Positions 45,379-55,080 of a DNA stretch of 64,000 nucleotides are shown piece after piece. The number at the start of each line of letters is the position of its first letter. Within the stretch, counting starts at the first letter, position 1. The notes below the pieces were generated by a model that did not search any database, had not been told where the DNA came from, and worked only from the letters and a program-made list of their open reading frames with translations. Both the position numbers and the translations under genes were made by a program. The stretch is from Bythopirellula goksoeyrii. GTDB taxonomy: Bacteria; Planctomycetota; Planctomycetia; Pirellulales; Lacipirellulaceae. The stretch is taken from contig NZ_CP042913.1 in assembly GCF_008065115.1 (NCBI RefSeq), forward strand, positions 6,273,257 to 6,337,256. Reading direction: 5' to 3'.

Positions 45379-46500
45379 CTACTCGTCCCGTCCCAGTAGC
45401 GGCTCAATTTCTTTCAGAGAATCGCGTCTATGCACTCGCGCCAGGTGAGCCCCGGTTGCCAGGACTGCCACGCCACCGAGCACCAGCGAAGAAGTCGCAT
45501 GACGTTCGCGTTCCTTAGTCAGCGGAGCGGTCGGTGCCTCGACCTCAGCGGGGCGTTGCTCCTCCCATTCGGCGAAGACCTGATCTCGGGCAGTTTCCTG
45601 GACAGCCTCAGCCGAGTTATTCGCCTCGCTGGTTTCGAGGTGTGATGTCGCGGTTAAAGTTGCCTGGAGAATATTCTCTCCCGGCGCAATCTCTGGTCGA
45701 GACGAAATCAGGTTGGCAGACTGTACTACAGGTGGTTGCGATTCATCGCGCGGTGAATCTGCCTTCGCAGGTGTTCTTGTGGGTAGAGAAATCTTGGGGG
45801 CAACCTCTGACTTTTGCACTTCGTTGAACTCTGAATCTCGAGCATTGCTCTGGGCAGCAGCAGGTCGGAGCGAAGCAACTTCAAAAGCCATCTCGCGCCC
45901 CTGGGCCGGGGCGTATTCTTGCGCACGAACTGCTGTTTCAATTTGCAGCGATTCTGTACGAGGCGCGTCAACTAAGCCGCCTTCCGACCGAACACCCGGA
46001 CGCTGCTCAAAGGAAGGGCCAAAAAGTTGGGCGATCTGGACCTCCCCTCCATCTGGCTGGGTGGGCGGGTCTTGCTCCAGTGGGGCAATCGGGATCACCT
46101 GCTCCAACCCTCCCCCCAGGGTGCTCGCATTGAGATCCCCCCGGGATTGGAAATTTGCCTCCCCTTTGTCAATCCCATCGATGTCAGTAGTAATCAGGTC
46201 TTGAGTATTTAAGATCTGTCCCGTACCGAAGGTCGCTGAGAATTCGAATCCACTGAGTCCGTGGGAGTCGATGACTCCACGCATGTCGCCGACGAACATT
46301 TGGTCGGTGGAGAAAGAAATCAAACCACCCTCGGAAAAGTTCGTACCATCAAAGGTAATCGCTAGTCCCCCGGTGGAGGTCGAGAGGGTGATGCGCTCTT
46401 CCATCTGCTCGAAGCCCAGCGAGCGACGACAGACCGGACGCGACGAACGCATCTCTTGTCCTTTGTCGAAGCGTCTTCGCTTGTTCCCAGAAAATCTCAT
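45379..46500 (-). CDS. Membrane protein with LEPR-XLL-like N-terminus, coupled to a kinase gene
   Basis: A 373-aa protein. The N-terminus is basic and carries FEQMEERITLS, an LEPR-XLL-like motif of exported planctomycete proteins. A short beta-rich part follows (GLAITFDGTNFSEGGLISFS), then a long low-complexity Pro/Glu/Ala/Ser linker, then one membrane segment near the end (SLVLGGVAVLATGAHLA) with a short charged tail. Its ATG overlaps the stop of the upstream kinase gene (ATGA), so translation is coupled. It could be a membrane partner or target of the kinase; this is inference from coupling only. Confidence 0.72.
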   Translation of the reverse strand: MRFSGNKRRRFDKGQEMRSSRPVCRRSLGFEQMEERITLSTSTGGLAITFDGTNFSEGGLISFSTDQMFVGDMRGVIDSHGLSGFEFSATFGTGQILNTQDLITTDIDGIDKGEANFQSRGDLNASTLGGGLEQVIPIAPLEQDPPTQPDGGEVQIAQLFGPSFEQRPGVRSEGGLVDAPRTESLQIETAVRAQEYAPAQGREMAFEVASLRPAAAQSNARDSEFNEVQKSEVAPKISLPTRTPAKADSPRDESQPPVVQSANLISSRPEIAPGENILQATLTATSHLETSEANNSAEAVQETARDQVFAEWEEQRPAEVEAPTAPLTKERERHATSSLVLGGVAVLATGAHLARVHRRDSLKEIEPLLGRDE

Positions 46501-49430
46501 GGCTGCTTCTCCGGGAATGTGCTGGAATTCGTGAGAACGTCGCTACTCGAATACTCGCTGAAAATCTCAGGCAAGGGATGCTCGCGACGGAGGCGATCAA
46601 CGTCGGCACCTGCAGATTCTGCTTGCTTGAATGTCTCCAAAGCTTCTTGCAGGATCTGGTCCTGTTCGGCTGACTCACCGCCAAGCAGTTGCGCCGCTTC
46701 GGCCAACTCGCCAGCAACATAATACAGATGTTCGCCATCGTCAGCCCAGAGTGTCCGTCGCTCGAGAGCTACGGAGGCAGCCTCGGCCGGGCGGCCTGCA
46801 GTTCGGAGAGTCCGACCATAGTTGAAATAGTGCTTGCTCAGAAACTCGCGGAACTCGGGCTGAGCGGGATTCGCCGCCAGGGCTGCGCTCTGGTGCTCAA
46901 TCGCGGATTCGTAGTCGATTATAGCGCGGGCCAAGTCGCCAGTCTGTTCTGCCACCATTGCCCGGTTGTTCAACACTCCCGCCAGCGAACTCTGGTACCG
47001 TGCGTCCTGCGGAAAGTCGGCAACCAGTTCGGTCAGGATCTCAAGTGCATGAGCATAAGCAGCCACCGCCGGACTGGTCGCGTGAGTGCGGGCCAGTGTC
47101 TGGCCAAGATTGTTCCAGGTAAGCGCCAACTCGCTACGATATTGTACCACGCTGGCAAACTGCCTCACGAGCTGCTCTTGAGTCTCAATCGCCTGGCGAT
47201 AGGCGGCAACCGCCGCCGTGTCGTCACCTATCCGGCCCACGATGGCACCCAAGTTGTTTTGGCAAAGCGCCAGATCACTCCGCCAACTTGCCAGTGTAGG
47301 TGTATCTGCTGCGCGTTGATCGACAATCTCTTGAAGCAACTCCACTGCCCGCTCACACGAGGACCGGGCAGCTTCCCAATTGGTCTCCTGCTCGACAAAG
47401 CTTCGGTTGTTCAGCGCAAGAGCCAGATCGTGCCGGGCATGTACGTCTTCAGGCGAATGGGCCGCGATTTTTTCCAATCGCCCGATTGCCGCTGAAAACG
47501 AACGCAGAGCGGATGGCAAATCCCCGCGTTGTCGCTCGAGAAAACCCTGGTTGGTTAGCATCTCGGCAAGCAAACGCAAACTCGCGCGATCCGCGGGATT
47601 CTTCGCAGTGATGTTTTTCTGCAAATCAATTGCCGCGGTGTAATGCTCGCGGGCCAACTGGAGATTTCCTTCTGCAGCCGAGAGTAAAGCGAGGTTATTC
47701 AGACAGGTTGCTCTTTCCTGCCGAAACAACTGGGGATCGTCACCTGCCTCGCTCAAGCGAGTAAATAGTTCGTAAGCCTTACGGTAGGATTCTTCGGAAC
47801 GCTGTCGATCGCCCAATCGGCTGGCAATGGTCCCCACCTGAAAATGAGTCGACGCAAGTTGCTGATCGAGTGTCGGATCGCTTGCCGCCCGAGCAATGAA
47901 ATCCTCATAGTAGGCGAGCGTGTCTCCCAGCACCGCTTGCCGTAGTGGCTCGCTGCCGGGAAGCTGGGCAAGCTCACGTGAAAACCGATTCCCAAACCGA
48001 TCAACTACCTGACGCGCTTGCTGGAGGTTCTCCTCGGCAGTCACCAAGGCCGCCTGGGTGCGACCTTGCTCGCGCATCAGCAAGAACGCGGAGCTCGTCG
48101 AGACCGCAGCCAGCACCACCAGAAAACTGGCCGCGAGCGAGACGAGCACTCGATGTCGGCGTATCCATTTAGCGGAGCGATCCCGCAAGGTGGGGCGACG
48201 CGCCAGTGTCGGCTTCCCCTCAAGAAAGCGAGTGAGATCCTCGGCCAGTTTTTCCGCCGTGGCGTAGCGATCTTCTCGCGACTTGGCCATCGCACTGAGA
48301 ATGATTGTTTCCAAATCGTGGGGGATCGCCGGATCGATCATGCTCGGAGCAATTGGCTCCTTTTGGGCAATCGCTCGTAGCACTTCCTGGCGATCCTCTC
48401 CCGGGAAAGCAGGCTGCAATGTGAGCAATTCGTAGAGTGTGGCCCCGAGCGAATAGATATCGGTGCGCGAATCGACAACCAGTTGCCCTGAATTGGCCTG
48501 CTCGGGACTCATGTACCGCAGCGTGCCGACCATGTCACCAGTCATGGTTACGCTAGGGTTGTTTGCGATACGCGCGAGGCCGAAATCGGTAATCCACAGT
48601 TTTTGCCTGTCATCGAGCAGTAGGTTCGAAGGCTTGATGTCGCGGTGGATCACCCCACATTGATGGGCATGATGTAAGGCGTTGGCAGCTTGAATCCCCA
48701 ATCGGGCAATTGCCACGCAGTATTCCGCGTGGCTCCCTGCATGGCGAGAGGTGAGAAATTCGCATCCCGAGTGTTGCGTCGTCTGGGCAACAAGCGTGGA
48801 GACGGCATGAGGGGCTGACTCGGGGCTAGAGGCATCTTCCTCGTCATTGCGTAGCGCATGGACTACCCGGTCGAGCGATCTCCCCGCTATGAATTGCATC
48901 GCGTAGAAATGCACTCCCCGTTCCTCACCAACGGCAAACACGGGCACAATGTTGGGATGATGCAGCTGAGCCGCTGCTTGGGCCTCGTTCTGGAAGCGAG
49001 CAAGCTGCTTGTGATCCCACATAGCAGCAAACGGCAGTACCTTCAGGGCGACTTTGCGCTGCAGTGATATCTGCTGTGCTTCATAAACAACCCCCATTCC
49101 ACCCCGGCCAATTTCTGCGCCGATCTGGAAGTCACCCAATCGCTTCGCACCGACATCAGTCGGTCCTGCAGAAAAAGGTGCTGTCGACTTAGCAGACCCT
49201 CTCTTACTAGGTTTGGCGGCCCGCACACCCTGTGTCGCTTCATGCAACATTTCGACACTAGCTGCAAAGGCACGAATATCCTCCGCCAGACGCGGATGCT
49301 CTGTGGCCAATAGGGTCACATCCAACGGCGTGCCCTCTTCGAGCGATGCCAGATAACTATCCAGCACCTCGGCCAATTCCCTGTCGTCCAGGACACAAGG
49401 ATTCAAAGTTTGAGAGGGCTCACTAATCAT
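46497..49430 (-). CDS. Membrane Ser/Thr protein kinase with TPR sensor domain
   Basis: A 977-aa PknB-type kinase. N-terminal lead of about 100 residues, then the kinase domain: GRGGMGVVYEA P-loop, VALKVL with the ATP lysine, HRDIKPSNLLL catalytic loop, TDFGLAR and APE-type YMSPEQA. All catalytic residues are present. An insertion of about 50 residues sits between the hinge and the alphaE helix. A membrane segment (VLVSLAASFLVVLAAVS) at about residue 430 is followed by some twelve TPR-like units (AAVAAYRQAIETQEQLVRQF) in the predicted exterior half. Lies 39 bp after the ECF sigma gene and overlaps the next gene by 4 bp. Confidence 0.93.
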   Translation of the reverse strand: MISEPSQTLNPCVLDDRELAEVLDSYLASLEEGTPLDVTLLATEHPRLAEDIRAFAASVEMLHEATQGVRAAKPSKRGSAKSTAPFSAGPTDVGAKRLGDFQIGAEIGRGGMGVVYEAQQISLQRKVALKVLPFAAMWDHKQLARFQNEAQAAAQLHHPNIVPVFAVGEERGVHFYAMQFIAGRSLDRVVHALRNDEEDASSPESAPHAVSTLVAQTTQHSGCEFLTSRHAGSHAEYCVAIARLGIQAANALHHAHQCGVIHRDIKPSNLLLDDRQKLWITDFGLARIANNPSVTMTGDMVGTLRYMSPEQANSGQLVVDSRTDIYSLGATLYELLTLQPAFPGEDRQEVLRAIAQKEPIAPSMIDPAIPHDLETIILSAMAKSREDRYATAEKLAEDLTRFLEGKPTLARRPTLRDRSAKWIRRHRVLVSLAASFLVVLAAVSTSSAFLLMREQGRTQAALVTAEENLQQARQVVDRFGNRFSRELAQLPGSEPLRQAVLGDTLAYYEDFIARAASDPTLDQQLASTHFQVGTIASRLGDRQRSEESYRKAYELFTRLSEAGDDPQLFRQERATCLNNLALLSAAEGNLQLAREHYTAAIDLQKNITAKNPADRASLRLLAEMLTNQGFLERQRGDLPSALRSFSAAIGRLEKIAAHSPEDVHARHDLALALNNRSFVEQETNWEAARSSCERAVELLQEIVDQRAADTPTLASWRSDLALCQNNLGAIVGRIGDDTAAVAAYRQAIETQEQLVRQFASVVQYRSELALTWNNLGQTLARTHATSPAVAAYAHALEILTELVADFPQDARYQSSLAGVLNNRAMVAEQTGDLARAIIDYESAIEHQSAALAANPAQPEFREFLSKHYFNYGRTLRTAGRPAEAASVALERRTLWADDGEHLYYVAGELAEAAQLLGGESAEQDQILQEALETFKQAESAGADVDRLRREHPLPEIFSEYSSSDVLTNSSTFPEKQP

Positions 49431-49469
49431 TGGTAGCTGTTGGCAGTTTGCAATTGGCTAACTGATTCC

Positions 49470-50090
49470 TTATTCATCCATTTTTTCTCGTAAGCAGCGA
49501 ATGGCACGTACCCACAACATTCGAGTGGCACCGGTCCGACGCTGCATCCGCTTGGCCACTTCCTCAAATGGCAAAGCCTCGATGTGTCGCAATATAATCA
49601 CTTCCCGGTAGTCCGGCGGCAATGCAGCAATTTGGTTGGCTAGATCCAGTTCCTGTTCCTGTCGCTGGTAGGTTCCACTGGGAGAATTCCCCGGATCAGA
49701 AAGCATCGCATCGAGCCTGGCAGTAGATTGCTCCAACGAACCGGCCAGTACCTCCAGTGAAACTTCGCGTCGGACGGACCGTTTGGCAGTAAGCACATGC
49801 TGCTCGACCACCCGGTGGAGATTATTAACCAGGATCATCCGGAGCCACGCACAGAACTCCCCGATCGACTGCCCCCGAAACTGGTCAAAGTCGCGGTTGG
49901 CCTCAAGAAAGGTTTCCTGCACCACATCCGAGGGACTGACGCGTTGCTGGAGACACCGCTCCAACTGGGCCACTACCAGCAGCTTCAGGTAATTGCGATA
50001 CACCGAGAGCAACTGCCCAAAACAGTCGCGCTCTCCCGCAAGCGCTTGCGAAAGCAAGAGTTGCGGATTCGTGCTGGAACAATCAGTCAT
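49470..50090 (-). CDS. ECF-family RNA polymerase sigma factor
   Basis: A 206-aa sigma factor. Region 2 includes SPSDVVQETFLEANRDFDQFRG and FCAWLRMILVNNLHRVV; region 4 includes ALPPDYREVIILRHIEALPFEEVAKRM with its helix-turn-helix and RRTGATRMLWVRAIRCLRE. The pattern is that of the planctomycete-abundant ECF groups that sit next to Ser/Thr kinases. No anti-sigma factor is encoded next to it; the downstream membrane kinase is the likely signal input. It is first in a three-gene unit. Confidence 0.9.
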   Translation of the reverse strand: MTDCSSTNPQLLLSQALAGERDCFGQLLSVYRNYLKLLVVAQLERCLQQRVSPSDVVQETFLEANRDFDQFRGQSIGEFCAWLRMILVNNLHRVVEQHVLTAKRSVRREVSLEVLAGSLEQSTARLDAMLSDPGNSPSGTYQRQEQELDLANQIAALPPDYREVIILRHIEALPFEEVAKRMQRRTGATRMLWVRAIRCLREKMDE

Positions 50091-50226: not shown

Positions 50227-51501
50227 TCAAACCCCGCCCGCCACCAGGGAAACGTTCTGTCCGCCGAAACCAAAGCTATTCGAGGCGGCGATGTCGCACT
50301 TGGCCTCGCGGGCCGTGTTGGGGACATAGTCGAGGTCGCACTCGGGATCGGGTGTTTCGTAGTTGATGGTGGGGGGGAGCACTTTGTGCTTCATCGCCAT
50401 CAGGCAGATAATCAACTCCGTCGCCCCGGCGGCGGCGATCAGATGGCCCGTCATGCTCTTGGTGCTAGAGACAGGAAGCTTGTCGGCATGCGTGCCGAAC
50501 ACCTGGCGGATCGCTAGCGACTCCACGCGATCGTTCACCGCGGTGCTGGTGCCGTGGGCGTTGATGTAGTCGATATCTGTCGGATCCTTGCCCGCATCTT
50601 TAAGTGCCATCTTCAGGCAACTAATCGCCCCGCGACCCTCAGGATGGGTATCCGTGATTCGAAACGCATCGGCAGTTGTACCGTAGCCCAGCAGCTCGCC
50701 ATAGATTGGGGCACCCCGCTTACGGGCGTGTTCGTATTCTTCGAGCACGACCATCGCGCCCCCTTCTCCCAAGACAAAACCATCGCGATTCTTGTCGAAC
50801 GGGCGCGATGCTCGCTCGGGTTCGTCATTTCGTTCGCTCAGGGCGGTAAGCAAGTTAAATCCAGTGACGCCGAAGGGGTGAATCATGCTGTGGGCTCCCC
50901 CGGAGAGCATCACATCGGCCTCACCGCGGCGAATGATCTCGGTCGCTTCGCCGATGGCCTGACTACTGGCGGCACAAGCGGTAAGGCAATTTACGTTGGG
51001 TCCCTGGGCATCAAACATCCCTGCCAAGTAGCCGACGGGCATATTGGGTTCCTGCTCCAGCTCAGCCTGGGGGTCGAGTATCTTCAGCCCCTCGGTGACG
51101 AATCCATTCAAATCAAGATCGCCCCCTTGCACAGCGGCGGTCATCATCTGCGAGAAATTGAAGAAATCCTGACTTCCTTCGCCGGCGCCCAGATAAACGC
51201 CAAACCGCGTCGGCTCAACCGTCCCCAGCACACCTGATTCTGTGATGGCCTGCTGGGCAGCCCCCGCAGCGAAACAAGTGTGTCGACTGCGGTCGTCCCA
51301 CTCAGTAGGGTCGAGACCAACAGCCGCGACGGACCAATCCCTCACTTCAGCGGAAATCTTGGTGGGAAAACTACTCGCATCAAAGATGGTGGTGCGGCCC
51401 ACGCCACTCTTACCGTCCATGAGATTCGCCCACAGCGAATCGACCGTGGTCCCCAACGGCGTAACGCAACCGACACCCGTGATGACAACCCGACGACGCA
51501 T
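50227..51501 (-). CDS. fabF: Beta-ketoacyl-ACP synthase II-type condensing enzyme
   Basis: A 424-aa KAS II-like enzyme. Active-site Cys176 in NCLTACAASS, His in NAHGTSTAVND, His in KSMTGHLIAAAGA; the C-terminal NSFGFGGQNVSLV is typical of FabF. It extends an acyl-ACP by two carbons with malonyl-ACP. AGGAG stands about 10 nt before the ATG. It closes a minus-strand set with two FabZ-like dehydratases and an unusual ACP, so it probably serves a dedicated acyl or polyene chain and may not be the housekeeping enzyme. Confidence 0.92.
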   Translation of the reverse strand: MRRRVVITGVGCVTPLGTTVDSLWANLMDGKSGVGRTTIFDASSFPTKISAEVRDWSVAAVGLDPTEWDDRSRHTCFAAGAAQQAITESGVLGTVEPTRFGVYLGAGEGSQDFFNFSQMMTAAVQGGDLDLNGFVTEGLKILDPQAELEQEPNMPVGYLAGMFDAQGPNVNCLTACAASSQAIGEATEIIRRGEADVMLSGGAHSMIHPFGVTGFNLLTALSERNDEPERASRPFDKNRDGFVLGEGGAMVVLEEYEHARKRGAPIYGELLGYGTTADAFRITDTHPEGRGAISCLKMALKDAGKDPTDIDYINAHGTSTAVNDRVESLAIRQVFGTHADKLPVSSTKSMTGHLIAAAGATELIICLMAMKHKVLPPTINYETPDPECDLDYVPNTAREAKCDIAASNSFGFGGQNVSLVAGGV

Positions 51502-51576
51502 GGTAAAATCTCCTAGAAAACAATTCTCTCGGCACTGATTGCCAAAGTATCGCTACTTTCGCGGAGCGAAAGGCGG

Positions 51577-52113
51577 CTACACCACCGGCGACGTTTCCAC
51601 CAACGGATACTCTGACTCTCGGATACGCGTGCCGTCTTGCCGCACTCCAACTTCAAACACGCCGACCAGCTGCAGCCAGTGCCGTAAGTCTCGCGGACGG
51701 AACAGCGGTGCCCCTCCGGTTACATCGTTGGACTCATCCAGTCGAGCGAAAAACAATTGGGCCTCGGCGTGCAAGCGGTCTCCGACATGCCCGGTTGCTG
51801 AGACTACCGCTCCGTCGCGCCGCAATGCATCGACCGTCACGCGATAGGTGAGGGTTTCGCCATTTCGCACATACGAGTGGAAACTAACTTTTGACAGTTT
51901 GGCGAGTACAACCAGTTCCGAGAAGCCATAATGTTCACTCACCAGAAGGCCGCCGGCTTGGGCGATTCCCTCTGTCACGAGCGAGTTCGGCATGATCGGA
52001 TAGCCGACAATGTGCTCATGCATATGAGGCTCCGCTAACGACACCCCTTTGACGGCCGTCGCGTGGGAGTCGCATACGAACTCGGTGAATCGATCAATCC
52101 AAAACCAACGCAT
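51577..52113 (-). CDS. FabZ-like 3-hydroxyacyl-ACP dehydratase, divergent
   Basis: A 178-aa hotdog-fold protein. The catalytic pair is kept: His34 and Glu48 in HIVGYPIMPNSLVTEG. The usual proline-glycine turn is Pro-Asn and the LPG pattern is MPN, so the site is divergent. The N-terminus (MRWFWIDRF) aligns without gaps to the second dehydratase of the cluster (MRFWLLDRI), and catalytic residues occupy identical positions (34 and 48), which suggests duplication. It lies 75 bp upstream of fabF. A role as partner of the other dehydratase, or as a specialised dehydratase/isomerase, is inferred. Confidence 0.82.
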   Translation of the reverse strand: MRWFWIDRFTEFVCDSHATAVKGVSLAEPHMHEHIVGYPIMPNSLVTEGIAQAGGLLVSEHYGFSELVVLAKLSKVSFHSYVRNGETLTYRVTVDALRRDGAVVSATGHVGDRLHAEAQLFFARLDESNDVTGGAPLFRPRDLRHWLQLVGVFEVGVRQDGTRIRESEYPLVETSPVV

Positions 52114-52152
52114 GTTGCTTGTACCTTAGAGTAACGTCAGAACCGCTCCGAT

Positions 52153-52228
52153 GAATGACGAATGTCCCATGAACAATGACGAAAGAATGACAAAGCTCGA
52201 ATGTCTAATTATTCTTGCTTCGTCATTC
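52153..52228. repeat. Inverted repeat between dehydratase and ACP genes
   Basis: GAATGACGAA (52153-52162) and TTCGTCATTC (52219-52228) are perfect 10-bp arms, with further partial copies of AATGACGAA in the loop. It lies in the 120-bp gap of an otherwise co-directional gene set. Confidence 0.65.
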
Positions 52229-52233
52229 GGAAT

Positions 52234-52620
52234 TTAACTCGCCAACTTATGCGCCACGAAGTTGCACATGTCCTGAACGGTTAGCTCTTGAGCCAAGTTC
52301 TGTACGATGGGATTCGACTCGAACTTGGAGAGATCGGCAAACGGCATCCGCTCTTTCAGCTTGGCAATTCCCTCGGCGTTGACCTTGCCATCCTGCACGT
52401 ACTCAGAATTGGTCAAGATATCTTCCGGGAATAATTCGCCCCGCTCGATCTTAATATCGAAGGCCTTTTCCAGGCGAAACACGATATCCAGAAAGTCAAT
52501 CGACTCCGCATCCAGATCACCCTGAAGCGTTGCTTGGGGAGTGACTTCATCATCATCGACTCCCAAGGCATCAACTAACGCTTCTTGTACTTTTTCAAAA
52601 ATCTCTTCATTGCTTGGCAT
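52234..52620 (-). CDS. Acyl carrier protein with an inserted segment (128 aa)
   Basis: An ACP with the phosphopantetheine site at Ser40 (DAESIDFLDIVFRLEKAF). The usual Asp before Ser is Glu39. Helices I and II and the recognition helix are normal, but between that helix (FDIKIERGELF) and the last helix (LTVQDMCNFVAHKL) there are about 40 extra residues (PEDILTNSEYVQDGKVNAEG onward). Standard ACPs are near 78 aa. The extra part probably packs as two short helices beside the core and may give partner specificity. It sits between two dehydratase genes. Confidence 0.88.
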   Translation of the reverse strand: MPSNEEIFEKVQEALVDALGVDDDEVTPQATLQGDLDAESIDFLDIVFRLEKAFDIKIERGELFPEDILTNSEYVQDGKVNAEGIAKLKERMPFADLSKFESNPIVQNLAQELTVQDMCNFVAHKLAS

Positions 52621-52658
52621 GGCTTAAAAATAACCTCCGATAAAATGGTTGGTATATG

Positions 52659-52706
52659 TTGTCAGTGGTCAGTGGTCCGCTTCAACTGGCCACTGACGAC
52701 TGACAA
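52659..52706. repeat. Inverted repeat between ACP and dehydratase genes
   Basis: Arms 52659-52675 and 52690-52706 pair at 16 of 17 positions around a 14-nt loop; the arms are built of repeated GTCAGTGG units. It lies in the 92-bp gap between two genes of the acyl cluster. Confidence 0.7.
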
Positions 52707-52712
52707 CTCTCT

Positions 52713-53207
52713 TTACGTCGGAACGACTTCTGAATTCAGACTTCGGGTCAGTAGCTTTTCGGTTCCCCGTTGATACTCGATCATCCTCGCATCAAGGTCG
52801 GCCTGTTCAGGATCTGCATCCGCAAGATTGAATCTTTCCAGGACGAGTCGACCACTCACCGAGGCTTTGCCGGCCACTTCACCCTTGAACTTGAAGTTCA
52901 CAAACCGCTCGTCCTTTTTTGTTTGCTCGACGCGGATGGTGAGCGTGTGACCCGGAGCAACAAAGTCGGCATACTTAACGGCGCTCGCTTCGTGCAACAC
53001 GATAATGCTGTGAGCATAGTCCTCGCTCAACCTGATCAACCAAACACACGCTTGCGTGGCCGCTTCAAGCATGAAGACGCCCGGCAACACGGGAAATTCA
53101 GGAAAATGATCCGCGAGATACTCTTCCGAGAGCGTCACATTTTTCACAGCCGTCAATTCGGTATCGGGCTCATACGAACTGATCCGATCCAGTAGCCAAA
53201 AACGCAT
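52713..53207 (-). CDS. fabZ: FabZ-type 3-hydroxyacyl-ACP dehydratase
   Basis: A 164-aa hotdog-fold dehydratase starting MRFWLLDRIS at 53207; an in-frame extension to 53306 has no family match. The active site is canonical: HFPEFPVLPGVFMLEA with His34 and Glu48. It removes water from 3-hydroxyacyl-ACP to give trans-2-enoyl-ACP. It is the first enzyme gene of the set and lies 262 bp after the pseudokinase gene on the same strand. The C-terminal 30 residues are a charged tail beyond the usual FabZ end. Confidence 0.9.
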   Translation of the reverse strand: MRFWLLDRISSYEPDTELTAVKNVTLSEEYLADHFPEFPVLPGVFMLEAATQACVWLIRLSEDYAHSIIVLHEASAVKYADFVAPGHTLTIRVEQTKKDERFVNFKFKGEVAGKASVSGRLVLERFNLADADPEQADLDARMIEYQRGTEKLLTRSLNSEVVPT

Positions 53208-53469
53208 AGGCTGGTGCCCCGAAGACGAACTGAGGGTTGGGAATGGGTGTTGATTTGGGTTAATTGGGAAAATAGCGAACTCGCGATTATAACTCGACTT
53301 CTCCACTCAGACAACGCCCCAACAACCGACTCTAACCCCCACTTTTTCAGCCTTTTCGACAGTTCACACCACCTGGGCAAACCCTGAGGTTTTGCCGTGA
53401 TCCCGAAGGGGAGTGCGATCCCCCGTGATACCGCAAACGCCGGAAGCTTACACATCCGGCTCGCCAAAT

Positions 53470-55080
53470 CTAATCCTTGGTTAGATTCTGAATCTGCACC
53501 CTGGCCTGATCCACCAAGGGCTGCAATTCTCTGTTGTCCTTGTAGGATGAGACTATCCCGTCCAAGATGCGCCGAGCTTTGTACAAATCCCCTTCCTGGA
53601 TCAGGGACTTGGACTGAGCCAATTGATCGCGCACGAAATCCGCTTGGCTCTTTCCGTCCTGCGGGTCGGATCTCAGATTCGAAATCCGCTGACGTGCCAA
53701 GCCAGCAAAGGCCCGGTCGTACTCATCGTCGCTCTTATTGAACATCGTGGCCAGTGCTTCGTATCTCTGCCAGGCAGTAATGCGGTCTCCCCGCTTCTCA
53801 AAGTCCCAAGCCTCGGTATAGAGCCGCTCCGCTTCACTTTCCGCAGGCCGACCCAGTCGGTCGTTGTTCTTTGCGCGAGTCTGCGCCCGATACACTAGGT
53901 AGCGATCTTCAAACTCCTGAATCTCATCGGCGTACTTTGTGTCGGGATACTGAGCCAAGAGTGGTTTGATGTATTGTTCTTCGGCCCGTTTCCAATCAAC
54001 GGGGCTCTCGGAATCCATGTAAGGTTTTGCCCCTTCAAACAAGGCATCCTCATCCGCTGGCCGCAGCGTCCAAGCCGCCCCCGCAACCAACAGCAACAAA
54101 CAAACTCCCAGAAACCAGGCGCGCTCGTAGAAAGGGCTCGTATCGCGATGCTTGCGACGGAATCCTTTCGACAACTTTCGCAGTTCTTTCTGATCTCCCC
54201 CAACTCGCAATACCCCTGACTTGCCAGCGAGTGCCTGCTGTGTAGCGCCCACCCCCGCAGCGACTTTCTGCATCGCACTAACTATCGCCCGATGGGCTTC
54301 TTCTGCAGACGAAAGTCGGTCAGCACGTTTAGGTTCGAGCAATTTAGCCACCAACACATCCAGCCATACAGGGCAGTCGAGTACCTTGGGGGCAATTCGC
54401 GGCGCTGGACCTGCGCGCCGTGCCTGGATCAACTCCGATGGAGTATTTGCTGACCAGGGTAATTCTCCCGCCAGACATTCATACAGAATCACCCCTAAAC
54501 TAAACAGATCGCACGGAGGGAGCGTCGCCGATTGCTTACCGCGAAACACTTCGGGTGCCAGATAGGGTGCCACCTCCATCGAAGATCGCAACCCCAACAC
54601 CTCATCCCGATCGCCCCAAGCACAATCAAACCCCGCCAATTTGACCCCGCCCCCTTCAGGAAGCAACACGCGACTCGGGGTGAGCCTCTGATGCACGAAC
54701 CCATGTTGATGAGCATGCCGCAGTGCCTCACAAATGCCGTCGGTGATCTCTACCGCAAGCTCCCAAGGAATCTTCCCCCGCCGATCCATCAAATCGCGCA
54801 GCGATTCCCCAGGGACCAGTTCGAGAGCCAGATAAGGCTGCCCGTCCTCGATCGTTCCGCCCAGATAGCGCACGATGCTTGGATGCACAAGCTTCTGCAA
54901 ACGCTTGACGTCGGCAGCAAACAGATTCCCACCCATCGCCTGGTTCACCAGACTCGGTGGCAACAGCTTCACCGCCATCGCAGTCTTGCGCTCAACGTGC
55001 AATCCGCGCAGAACATTAGCCGAGCCTCGGGGATCGAGGCATTCTTCCAACACAAAAGGACCAATTCGCGAACGCTGCAT
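53470..55080 (-). CDS. Membrane pseudokinase with TPR-like C-terminal region
   Basis: A 536-aa protein-kinase-fold protein. The ATP lysine is present (AVKLL, Lys38) and the C-lobe landmarks are kept (YLAPEVF, CDLFSLGVILYE). The catalytic loop reads HQRLTPSR, so the catalytic Asp is Arg132 and the metal-binding Asn is Arg137; DFG is replaced by GFD (150-152). The glycine loop is also degenerate (LDPRGSANV). Loss of catalysis is therefore predicted. A membrane segment (FLGVCLLLLVAGAAWTL) at about 325 precedes a helical region with TPR-like spacing. Probably a binding scaffold or regulator. The gene lies directly upstream of the acyl cluster. Confidence 0.88.
   Translation of the reverse strand: MQRSRIGPFVLEECLDPRGSANVLRGLHVERKTAMAVKLLPPSLVNQAMGGNLFAADVKRLQKLVHPSIVRYLGGTIEDGQPYLALELVPGESLRDLMDRRGKIPWELAVEITDGICEALRHAHQHGFVHQRLTPSRVLLPEGGGVKLAGFDCAWGDRDEVLGLRSSMEVAPYLAPEVFRGKQSATLPPCDLFSLGVILYECLAGELPWSANTPSELIQARRAGPAPRIAPKVLDCPVWLDVLVAKLLEPKRADRLSSAEEAHRAIVSAMQKVAAGVGATQQALAGKSGVLRVGGDQKELRKLSKGFRRKHRDTSPFYERAWFLGVCLLLLVAGAAWTLRPADEDALFEGAKPYMDSESPVDWKRAEEQYIKPLLAQYPDTKYADEIQEFEDRYLVYRAQTRAKNNDRLGRPAESEAERLYTEAWDFEKRGDRITAWQRYEALATMFNKSDDEYDRAFAGLARQRISNLRSDPQDGKSQADFVRDQLAQSKSLIQEGDLYKARRILDGIVSSYKDNRELQPLVDQARVQIQNLTKD

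Follow-up and report, generated by a model that had tools for sequence, protein, structure and literature searches.

The gene under study lies on the minus strand of a 64,000-nt stretch of the Bythopirellula goksoeyrii genome (hereafter the window; contig NZ_CP042913.1, positions 6,273,257 to 6,337,256), a genome assembled as one contig of 6.47 Mb. Its open reading frame is intact, has its limits exactly at 53470..55080, and encodes a kinase-like domain, a transmembrane helix and a helical C-terminal domain, in this order. As the first-pass annotation of this DNA had pointed out, an acyl gene cluster follows directly on the same strand; its genes are FabZ1, ACP, FabZ2 and FabF, in this order. 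The features, in coordinates of the window, are:

53470..55080, minus strand: pseudokinase gene, 536 aa (open reading frame with ATG start; Pfam PF00069; orthologues)
54298..55068, minus strand: kinase-like domain, about residues 5-261 (alignment; PknB-like fold)
54067..54132, minus strand: predicted single transmembrane helix, about residues 317-338 (low-pLDDT AlphaFold2 helix and hydrophobic sequence)
53476..54051, minus strand: predicted all-helical C-terminal domain, about residues 344-535, TPR-like at best (AlphaFold2; sub-threshold TPR/YfiO matches in some relatives)
52713..53306, minus strand, likely ATG at 53207: FabZ1, hotdog dehydratase and first gene of the cassette (PF07977, 2.3e-16; fabZ models below the curated cut-off)
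52234..52620, minus strand: acyl carrier protein (PF00550, 3.4e-9; NF002150, 67 versus 66 bits)
51577..52113, minus strand: FabZ2, second hotdog dehydratase (PF07977, 1.2e-10)
50227..51501, minus strand: FabF-type beta-ketoacyl-ACP synthase (PF00109/PF02801; NF005589, 470 versus 387 bits)

The kinase fold claimed for 53470-55080 is borne out. PF00069 matches residues 20-260, and hence both lobes, with an E-value of 1.3e-29 and 103.8 bits against a Pfam gathering cut-off of 31.7, indicating a Hanks-type protein kinase-like fold, and K38 of VAIK, Glu177 of APE and Asp191 of DLFSLG are all retained. PknB was the first match in both Foldseek (6.7e-9) and VIA (Z 9.8, rmsd 5.3, 195 residues aligned). 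Two AlphaFold2 models, each computed with ten sequences, gave mean pLDDT values of 64.1 and 57.6; since residues 151-190, the activation segment, are weak in both (pLDDT 24-36), the models support the fold only, and a rearranged active site is conceivable. The transmembrane helix is preceded by RRKHRD and followed by DED, a charge distribution which suggests that the kinase-like part is on the cytoplasmic side of the membrane. The C-terminal domain is all helical in an AlphaFold2 model, with pLDDT of 81-90 in most ten-residue blocks; at least a fifth of the VIA rows span residues 1-251 only and are thus uninformative about its fold. Pfam gave no confident identity for this domain, and its resemblance to TPRs is weak (TPR_14 in 6 of 15 members, best 0.017; TPR_6 in three; YfiO in two, best 6.1e-4). 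The nearest named relative of the protein is from Bythopirellula polymerisocia Pla144, with 85% identity.

Alignment of the kinase-like domain showed that HRD is replaced by H130-Q131-R132, the metal-ligand Asn by R137 and DFG by G150-F151-D152, and that the glycine loop is lost, the stretch at GxGxxG reading LDPRGSANVLRG. The replacements R132, R137 and G150 and the altered glycine loop had been reported with correct residue numbers in the first-pass annotation, which missed the change of the alpha-C Glu to D57. Of the VAIK Lys/alpha-C Glu pair only the Lys is therefore in place. By sequence, the domain has thus lost its catalytic base and its glycine loop as well as both magnesium ligands, with no canonical metal ligand remaining.

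Such losses are exceptional within the host genome. All 39 PF00069 matches with E-values up to 1e-10 were examined, and 37 of them have the catalytic Asp, the Asn and the DFG Asp; the two exceptions are the pseudokinase and one further ORF (L262). The kinase at 46497 of the window (L252) is intact as well, with its Lys, HRDIKPSN and DFG present, so that the loss was rightly described as specific. L262 (G000:C1:5427206-5427694) is a second degenerate kinase-like ORF, a 243-aa open frame in which the PF00069 match is confined to the later part, with HRDxxxxN replaced by YGWLSPSN and DFG by GPS. In the region 46497-50090, a planctomycete-type ECF sigma factor (TIGR02984, 225 versus 184 bits) is encoded beside the intact TPR kinase at 46497, and the two are perhaps a kinase-sigma pair.

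Relatives were collected with a profile restricted to the transmembrane and C-terminal parts, built from 15 orthologues of a full-length search (11 from the pseudokinase's own family, f1; one from f15; three from other families), three of which are intact kinases. Family codes are those of the genome search, and by the label of two loci (L031, L037) f1 is probably Lacipirellulaceae. Among 396 genomes of the order, 163 had a match at 1e-12, with at most six candidates scored per genome. Orthologues at E 5.8e-27 or better were found in 100 places, 23 in f1, 70 in f15 and seven in f2, f5, f9 and f10; the weaker hits are mostly a separate kinase. We examined 90 of the 100 (all but ten of the 70 in f15) together with 20 rows of the weaker group, using the best ORF per locus. 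The APE Glu, the DLFSLG Asp/Glu and Arg255 align in the 90 orthologues, which rules out misalignment as the source of the motif changes.

Conservation analysis showed that the degenerate form is shared by all f1 orthologues. The position of the catalytic Asp is R and that of the DFG Asp is G in all 23 orthologues; position 137 carries R in 20, H in two and K in one, so that no f1 orthologue retains any of the three catalytic residues expected of an active Ser/Thr protein kinase. According to the available text of PMC12599244, a pseudokinase is defined by the absence of at least one of the VAIK Lys, the HRD Asp and the DFG Asp; the latter two are absent in 23/23. The DFG Gly position is D in 22/23 (D152). 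Among the 22 rows that cover the N-terminal positions, K38 is present in 21 and the alpha-C Glu is changed in all, to Asp in 21. L61, H130, P176, E177, D191, G196 and R255 are invariant in the 23 rows, and we take these kept positions to be spine or landmark residues; near-invariant positions of the kinase-like domain include H130, L61, D191, K38, V23 and A36. The middle position of HRD varies among relatives (HQR, HRR, HGR, HER), and the change described as HRD to HQR, correct for the protein itself, is better written as HxR for the family.

The f15 orthologues show an overlapping set of losses. All 60 lack the Asn (replaced by K in 48) and the DFG Gly (replaced by R in 48 and by W in 12), the catalytic Asp is absent in 51 and present in nine, and the DFG Asp is absent in 14 and present in 46. 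Two f15 loci (L101, L110) are intermediate: they read HQD or HHD and DFR, have K for the Asn, and retain the VAIK Lys and the alpha-C Glu. Outside these families, six of the seven orthologues in f2, f5, f9 and f10 are intact. Of the 20 weaker-group rows, 19 are intact. In the class-wide search 114 of 198 genomes had a match at 1e-22, and 24 of the 25 loci examined are intact (the 25 comprise 19 in f22, one in f25, two in f21, two in f23 and one in f24; those of f21, f23 and f24 have lower scores and are perhaps not orthologues in the strict sense). Thus, the expectation that the pseudokinase form is conserved across genera stands for f1, where all 23 orthologues lack the three residues, but intact orthologues exist outside the f1 and f15 clade. 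Scattered degenerate kinases of the same architecture were seen at L088 (G082, f9; HRN with an intact DFG), L286 (G403, f23; HREL..H with SCG) and L150 (G392, f15; HSK with DLR, in the weaker group); L088 and L286 point to losses in further lineages.

Not every f1 genome yielded the gene: with at most six candidates scored per genome and some genomes incomplete, no orthologue was found in 20 of 43, indicating that the pseudokinase is not essential to the family.

The degenerate domain is nevertheless under constraint. Three f1 pairs with dS up to about 1.2 gave kinase-domain dN/dS values of 0.076, 0.086 and 0.089 (NG86). Overall, nine pairs with a degenerate domain yielded a value, six f1 pairs at 0.056-0.089 and three f15 pairs at 0.011-0.135, with dS high or undefined in several pairs, which makes those ratios rough; one f15 pair (L118-L128) gave none. 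The active pair L082-L083 had a dN/dS of 0.161. As a second measure we compared kinase-domain identities of pairs matched for the identity of their C-terminal part, in bins of 30-40, 40-50, 50-60 and 60-70%. The values were 0.592, 0.611, 0.654 and 0.77 for f1, 0.592, 0.591, 0.66 and 0.847 for the active f22 kinases, and 0.425, 0.504, 0.566 and 0.639 for f15; pairs are not independent, and the last two f22 bins hold five and three pairs. The f1 domain is thus held about as tightly as an active one up to 60% C-terminal identity, and the f15 domain is looser. In the 60-70% bin, conservation of the kinase domain is higher in active f22 than in f1 (0.847, 3 pairs, versus 0.77, 13 pairs). Together, these sequence comparisons indicate that the pseudokinase is maintained by purifying selection.

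Trees were of a quick type without bootstrap and excluded 21 near-duplicate or partial rows. In a tree built without the trait columns, which also omitted L150, the rows lacking the Asn (62 of 88) fall on one side of a branch with SH-aLRT 99. This tree requires one change each for the Asn and the DFG Gly, five for the catalytic Asp, four for the DFG Asp and six for the Lys. When class-level relatives were added and a further 22 rows removed (most of the weaker group, near-copies, and L283-L287, which include L286), the 63 rows with the loss, L088 among them, were again set apart from the rest by a single branch, whose support was just 72. The f15 rows do not form one clade, since L089, L090, L117 and L141 group with f1, and membership of f15 takes two changes on the tree; gene and species history may therefore differ. 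L150 is placed on a long branch among the f15 orthologues. Our reading of these trees is that an active membrane kinase was probably ancestral, that the common ancestor of the f1 and f15 genes would have lost the Asn and the DFG Gly, each a single time, and that the catalytic Asp was probably lost more than once.

The neighbouring cassette is a usual companion of the gene within f1. In 20 of 22 testable f1 genomes, from four genera, the cassette follows the gene on its own strand at a distance of up to about 6.3 kb. One of the 23 loci (L020) was excluded because of a contig end, some contigs end after the first one or two cassette genes, and G012 was counted as linked across a contig end, with the tail of the pseudokinase upstream of FabZ1 (L214). 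Linkage is absent in two testable genomes, both of genus g7; as this genus nests among linked genera in the tree, linkage looks ancestral in f1. Other same-strand neighbour families, leaving aside ORFs that overlap cassette genes, reach at most 8 of 20 f1 loci upon clustering. The order FabZ1-ACP-FabZ2-FabF seen at 50227-53306 of the window is constant in f1 loci with enough sequence. The linkage proposed in the first-pass annotation hence holds for most testable f1 genomes but not beyond f1: FabZ1, ACP and FabZ2 were found in the flanks of none of the 60 f15 loci (of which 57 have at least 2 kb of downstream sequence) and none of the seven loci of other families (three with under 3.5 kb downstream). 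One f15 locus (L144) has a FabF-like ORF upstream (77 bits).

FabZ1 itself is nearly universal in the order, where 113 of 117 sampled genomes have it. Its distance from the pseudokinase can be large in one-contig f15 genomes (e.g., G107, with FabZ1 at 0.32 Mb and the pseudokinase at 5.43 Mb). Within f1 it is present in 40 of 43 genomes, compared with 23 of 43 for the pseudokinase, and in 18 f1 genomes FabZ1 was found and the pseudokinase was not among the at most six candidates scored; the cassette is complete in the 17 of these that were read, while the reading of G222 covers its FabZ1 match. The seven one-contig f1 genomes place FabZ1 about 33-171 kb from a contig end, except for G023 with about 478 kb, a location perhaps near the replication origin. 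The cassette was not identified in the parts of the ladderane literature on planctomycete FAS clusters consulted (PMC2649909).

We considered an operon of pseudokinase and cassette, which is not supported. The gap to FabZ1 in the window is 163-262 bp depending on the FabZ1 start and contains a promoter-like site at 53314-53286, a type of site of which shuffles yield 1.2 in the stretch scanned. Moreover, all four wide-gap loci read (L032, L038, L075, L077) have ORFs between the two, which run on the opposite strand at two of these loci.

At 13 of 45 f15 loci, a small same-strand ORF (median 124 aa) starts about 1.6-1.75 kb past the start of the pseudokinase frame and has two hydrophobic stretches by eye (e.g., at L094 and L145). 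It is a possible lineage-specific partner of the pseudokinase.

We consider it probable that this single-pass membrane pseudokinase is a non-catalytic scaffold or signal relay. The kinase-like part would face the cytoplasm, the helical C-terminal domain would be extracytoplasmic and sense or bind something there, and the kinase-like domain would serve a partner, which could be a real kinase or an enzyme, as binding platform or conformational relay. The intact kinases among relatives of other families carry the same C-terminal domain. In f1, gene order suggests that partners may include the nearby FabZ-ACP-FabZ-FabF set, and a role in acyl metabolism would then be a possible, lineage-specific one.

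A stronger version of the last point, in which the pseudokinase acts at the membrane as a dedicated regulator or scaffold of the FabZ-ACP-FabZ-FabF pathway, e.g., by holding enzymes or ACP or by gating on a periplasmic signal, is in our view unlikely. The same-strand upstream position in 20/22 f1 genomes of four genera, unmatched by any other neighbour (8/20 at most), and its apparently ancestral state in f1 speak for it, but FabZ1, ACP and FabZ2 are not found in the flanks of the 60 f15 and seven other-family loci, ORFs intervene at L032, L038, L075 and L077, 18 f1 genomes have FabZ1 with no pseudokinase found, and the gap holds a promoter-like site. An even more specific proposal is quite improbable: that the protein couples an extracytoplasmic signal to the type II fatty-acid cassette, its domain, with the acidic residue at the third DFG position near R132 and R137, binding a nucleotide in the absence of metal, or else an acyl-carrier or CoA ligand, and switching or tethering FabZ-ACP-FabZ-FabF at the membrane. 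If true, it would be a case of a non-catalytic kinase controlling bacterial lipid synthesis. The same shift of an acidic residue from the first to the third DFG position (GFD) could also mark an unusual active enzyme whose different geometry permits the transfer of phosphate, AMP or another group. K38 (21/22) and D152 (22/23) are near-invariant in f1, and SelO and SidJ show that other chemistry can arise on kinase-like folds (PMC12599244). However, basic residues occupy the catalytic Asp and Asn positions in all 23 f1 orthologues, no glycine loop and no canonical metal ligand is left, and another residue has replaced the alpha-C Glu in 22/22; we regard this explanation as very unlikely.

Finally, the gene could be a decaying copy on its way to loss. 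Active orthologues do exist, no orthologue was found in 20/43 f1 genomes, and the f15 domains are more relaxed. The first-pass annotation had taken orthologues with intact HRD and DFG as a sign of decay; such orthologues occur outside f1 and f15, but decay does not follow from them, since the dead domain combines low dN/dS (0.011-0.135 in nine pairs, several with high dS) with f1 conservation like that of the active f22 domain up to 60% C-terminal identity. In addition, no listed orthologue has an internal stop, and the change of the Asn and the Gly is placed, on the tree, below f1 as well as f15. Given the intact frames, the low dN/dS and the conservation at matched divergence, we reject decay as hardly credible, and retain the scaffold or relay as the preferred reading. 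The family combines active orthologues and dead descendants in a single rooted gene lineage whose C-terminal domain stays the same, so that what selection keeps after catalysis is lost becomes testable with natural comparison proteins. The f1-specific linkage to the cassette, with FabZ1 near-universal in the order, offers a concrete first partner candidate.

Among known proteins, Hanks kinases of the PknB/StkP type are the best sequence and fold matches in the PDB (StkP, 5.9e-35, and PknB), but the catalytic residues of these enzymes are absent in the pseudokinase. As a PASTA kinase it scores 136 bits on NF033483, far from the cut-off of 450. Within the same phylum, PMC11032199 describes membrane Ser/Thr kinases of Planctomycetota with TPR or WD40 repeats, which likewise have a cytoplasmic Pkinase domain and predicted periplasmic repeats. 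In that study planctomycete kinases were counted and a kinase tree was built from domains with the K-D-D residues, so that a protein like the one described here would be left out.

EssB/YukC of type VIIb secretion, as outlined in the available text of PMC12599244, sits in the membrane and has a pseudokinase domain on the cytoplasmic side; the three motifs and the glycine loop of this domain are degraded, and it serves as a non-catalytic scaffold. It belongs to a different phylum and system, and the pseudokinase, unlike EssB/YukC, has intact orthologues; no EssB match appeared in the Pfam or NCBIfam results. We take the likeness to be one of working principle only. In the same text, seven bacterial pseudokinase families are annotated (ActPs1-3, GLW, CP1, DYD and DLHK), which resemble the pseudokinase in being conserved with divergent HRD and DFG motifs, several with a transmembrane segment after the kinase domain. 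The hosts named there are Actinobacteria, Proteobacteria, Cyanobacteria, Firmicutes and Leptospira, and the string "planctomyc" does not occur in the main text. In GLW the eponymous motif replaces HRD, CP1 has no transmembrane segment and carries COG3899, and DLHK has no transmembrane segment. The pseudokinase fits neither GLW nor CP1, having HQR for HRD, a hydrophobic helix and no COG3899-type domain in Pfam. No prior description of the family was recognised in the open-access full text searched. On this literature, it appears to be a previously undescribed family of planctomycete membrane pseudokinases.
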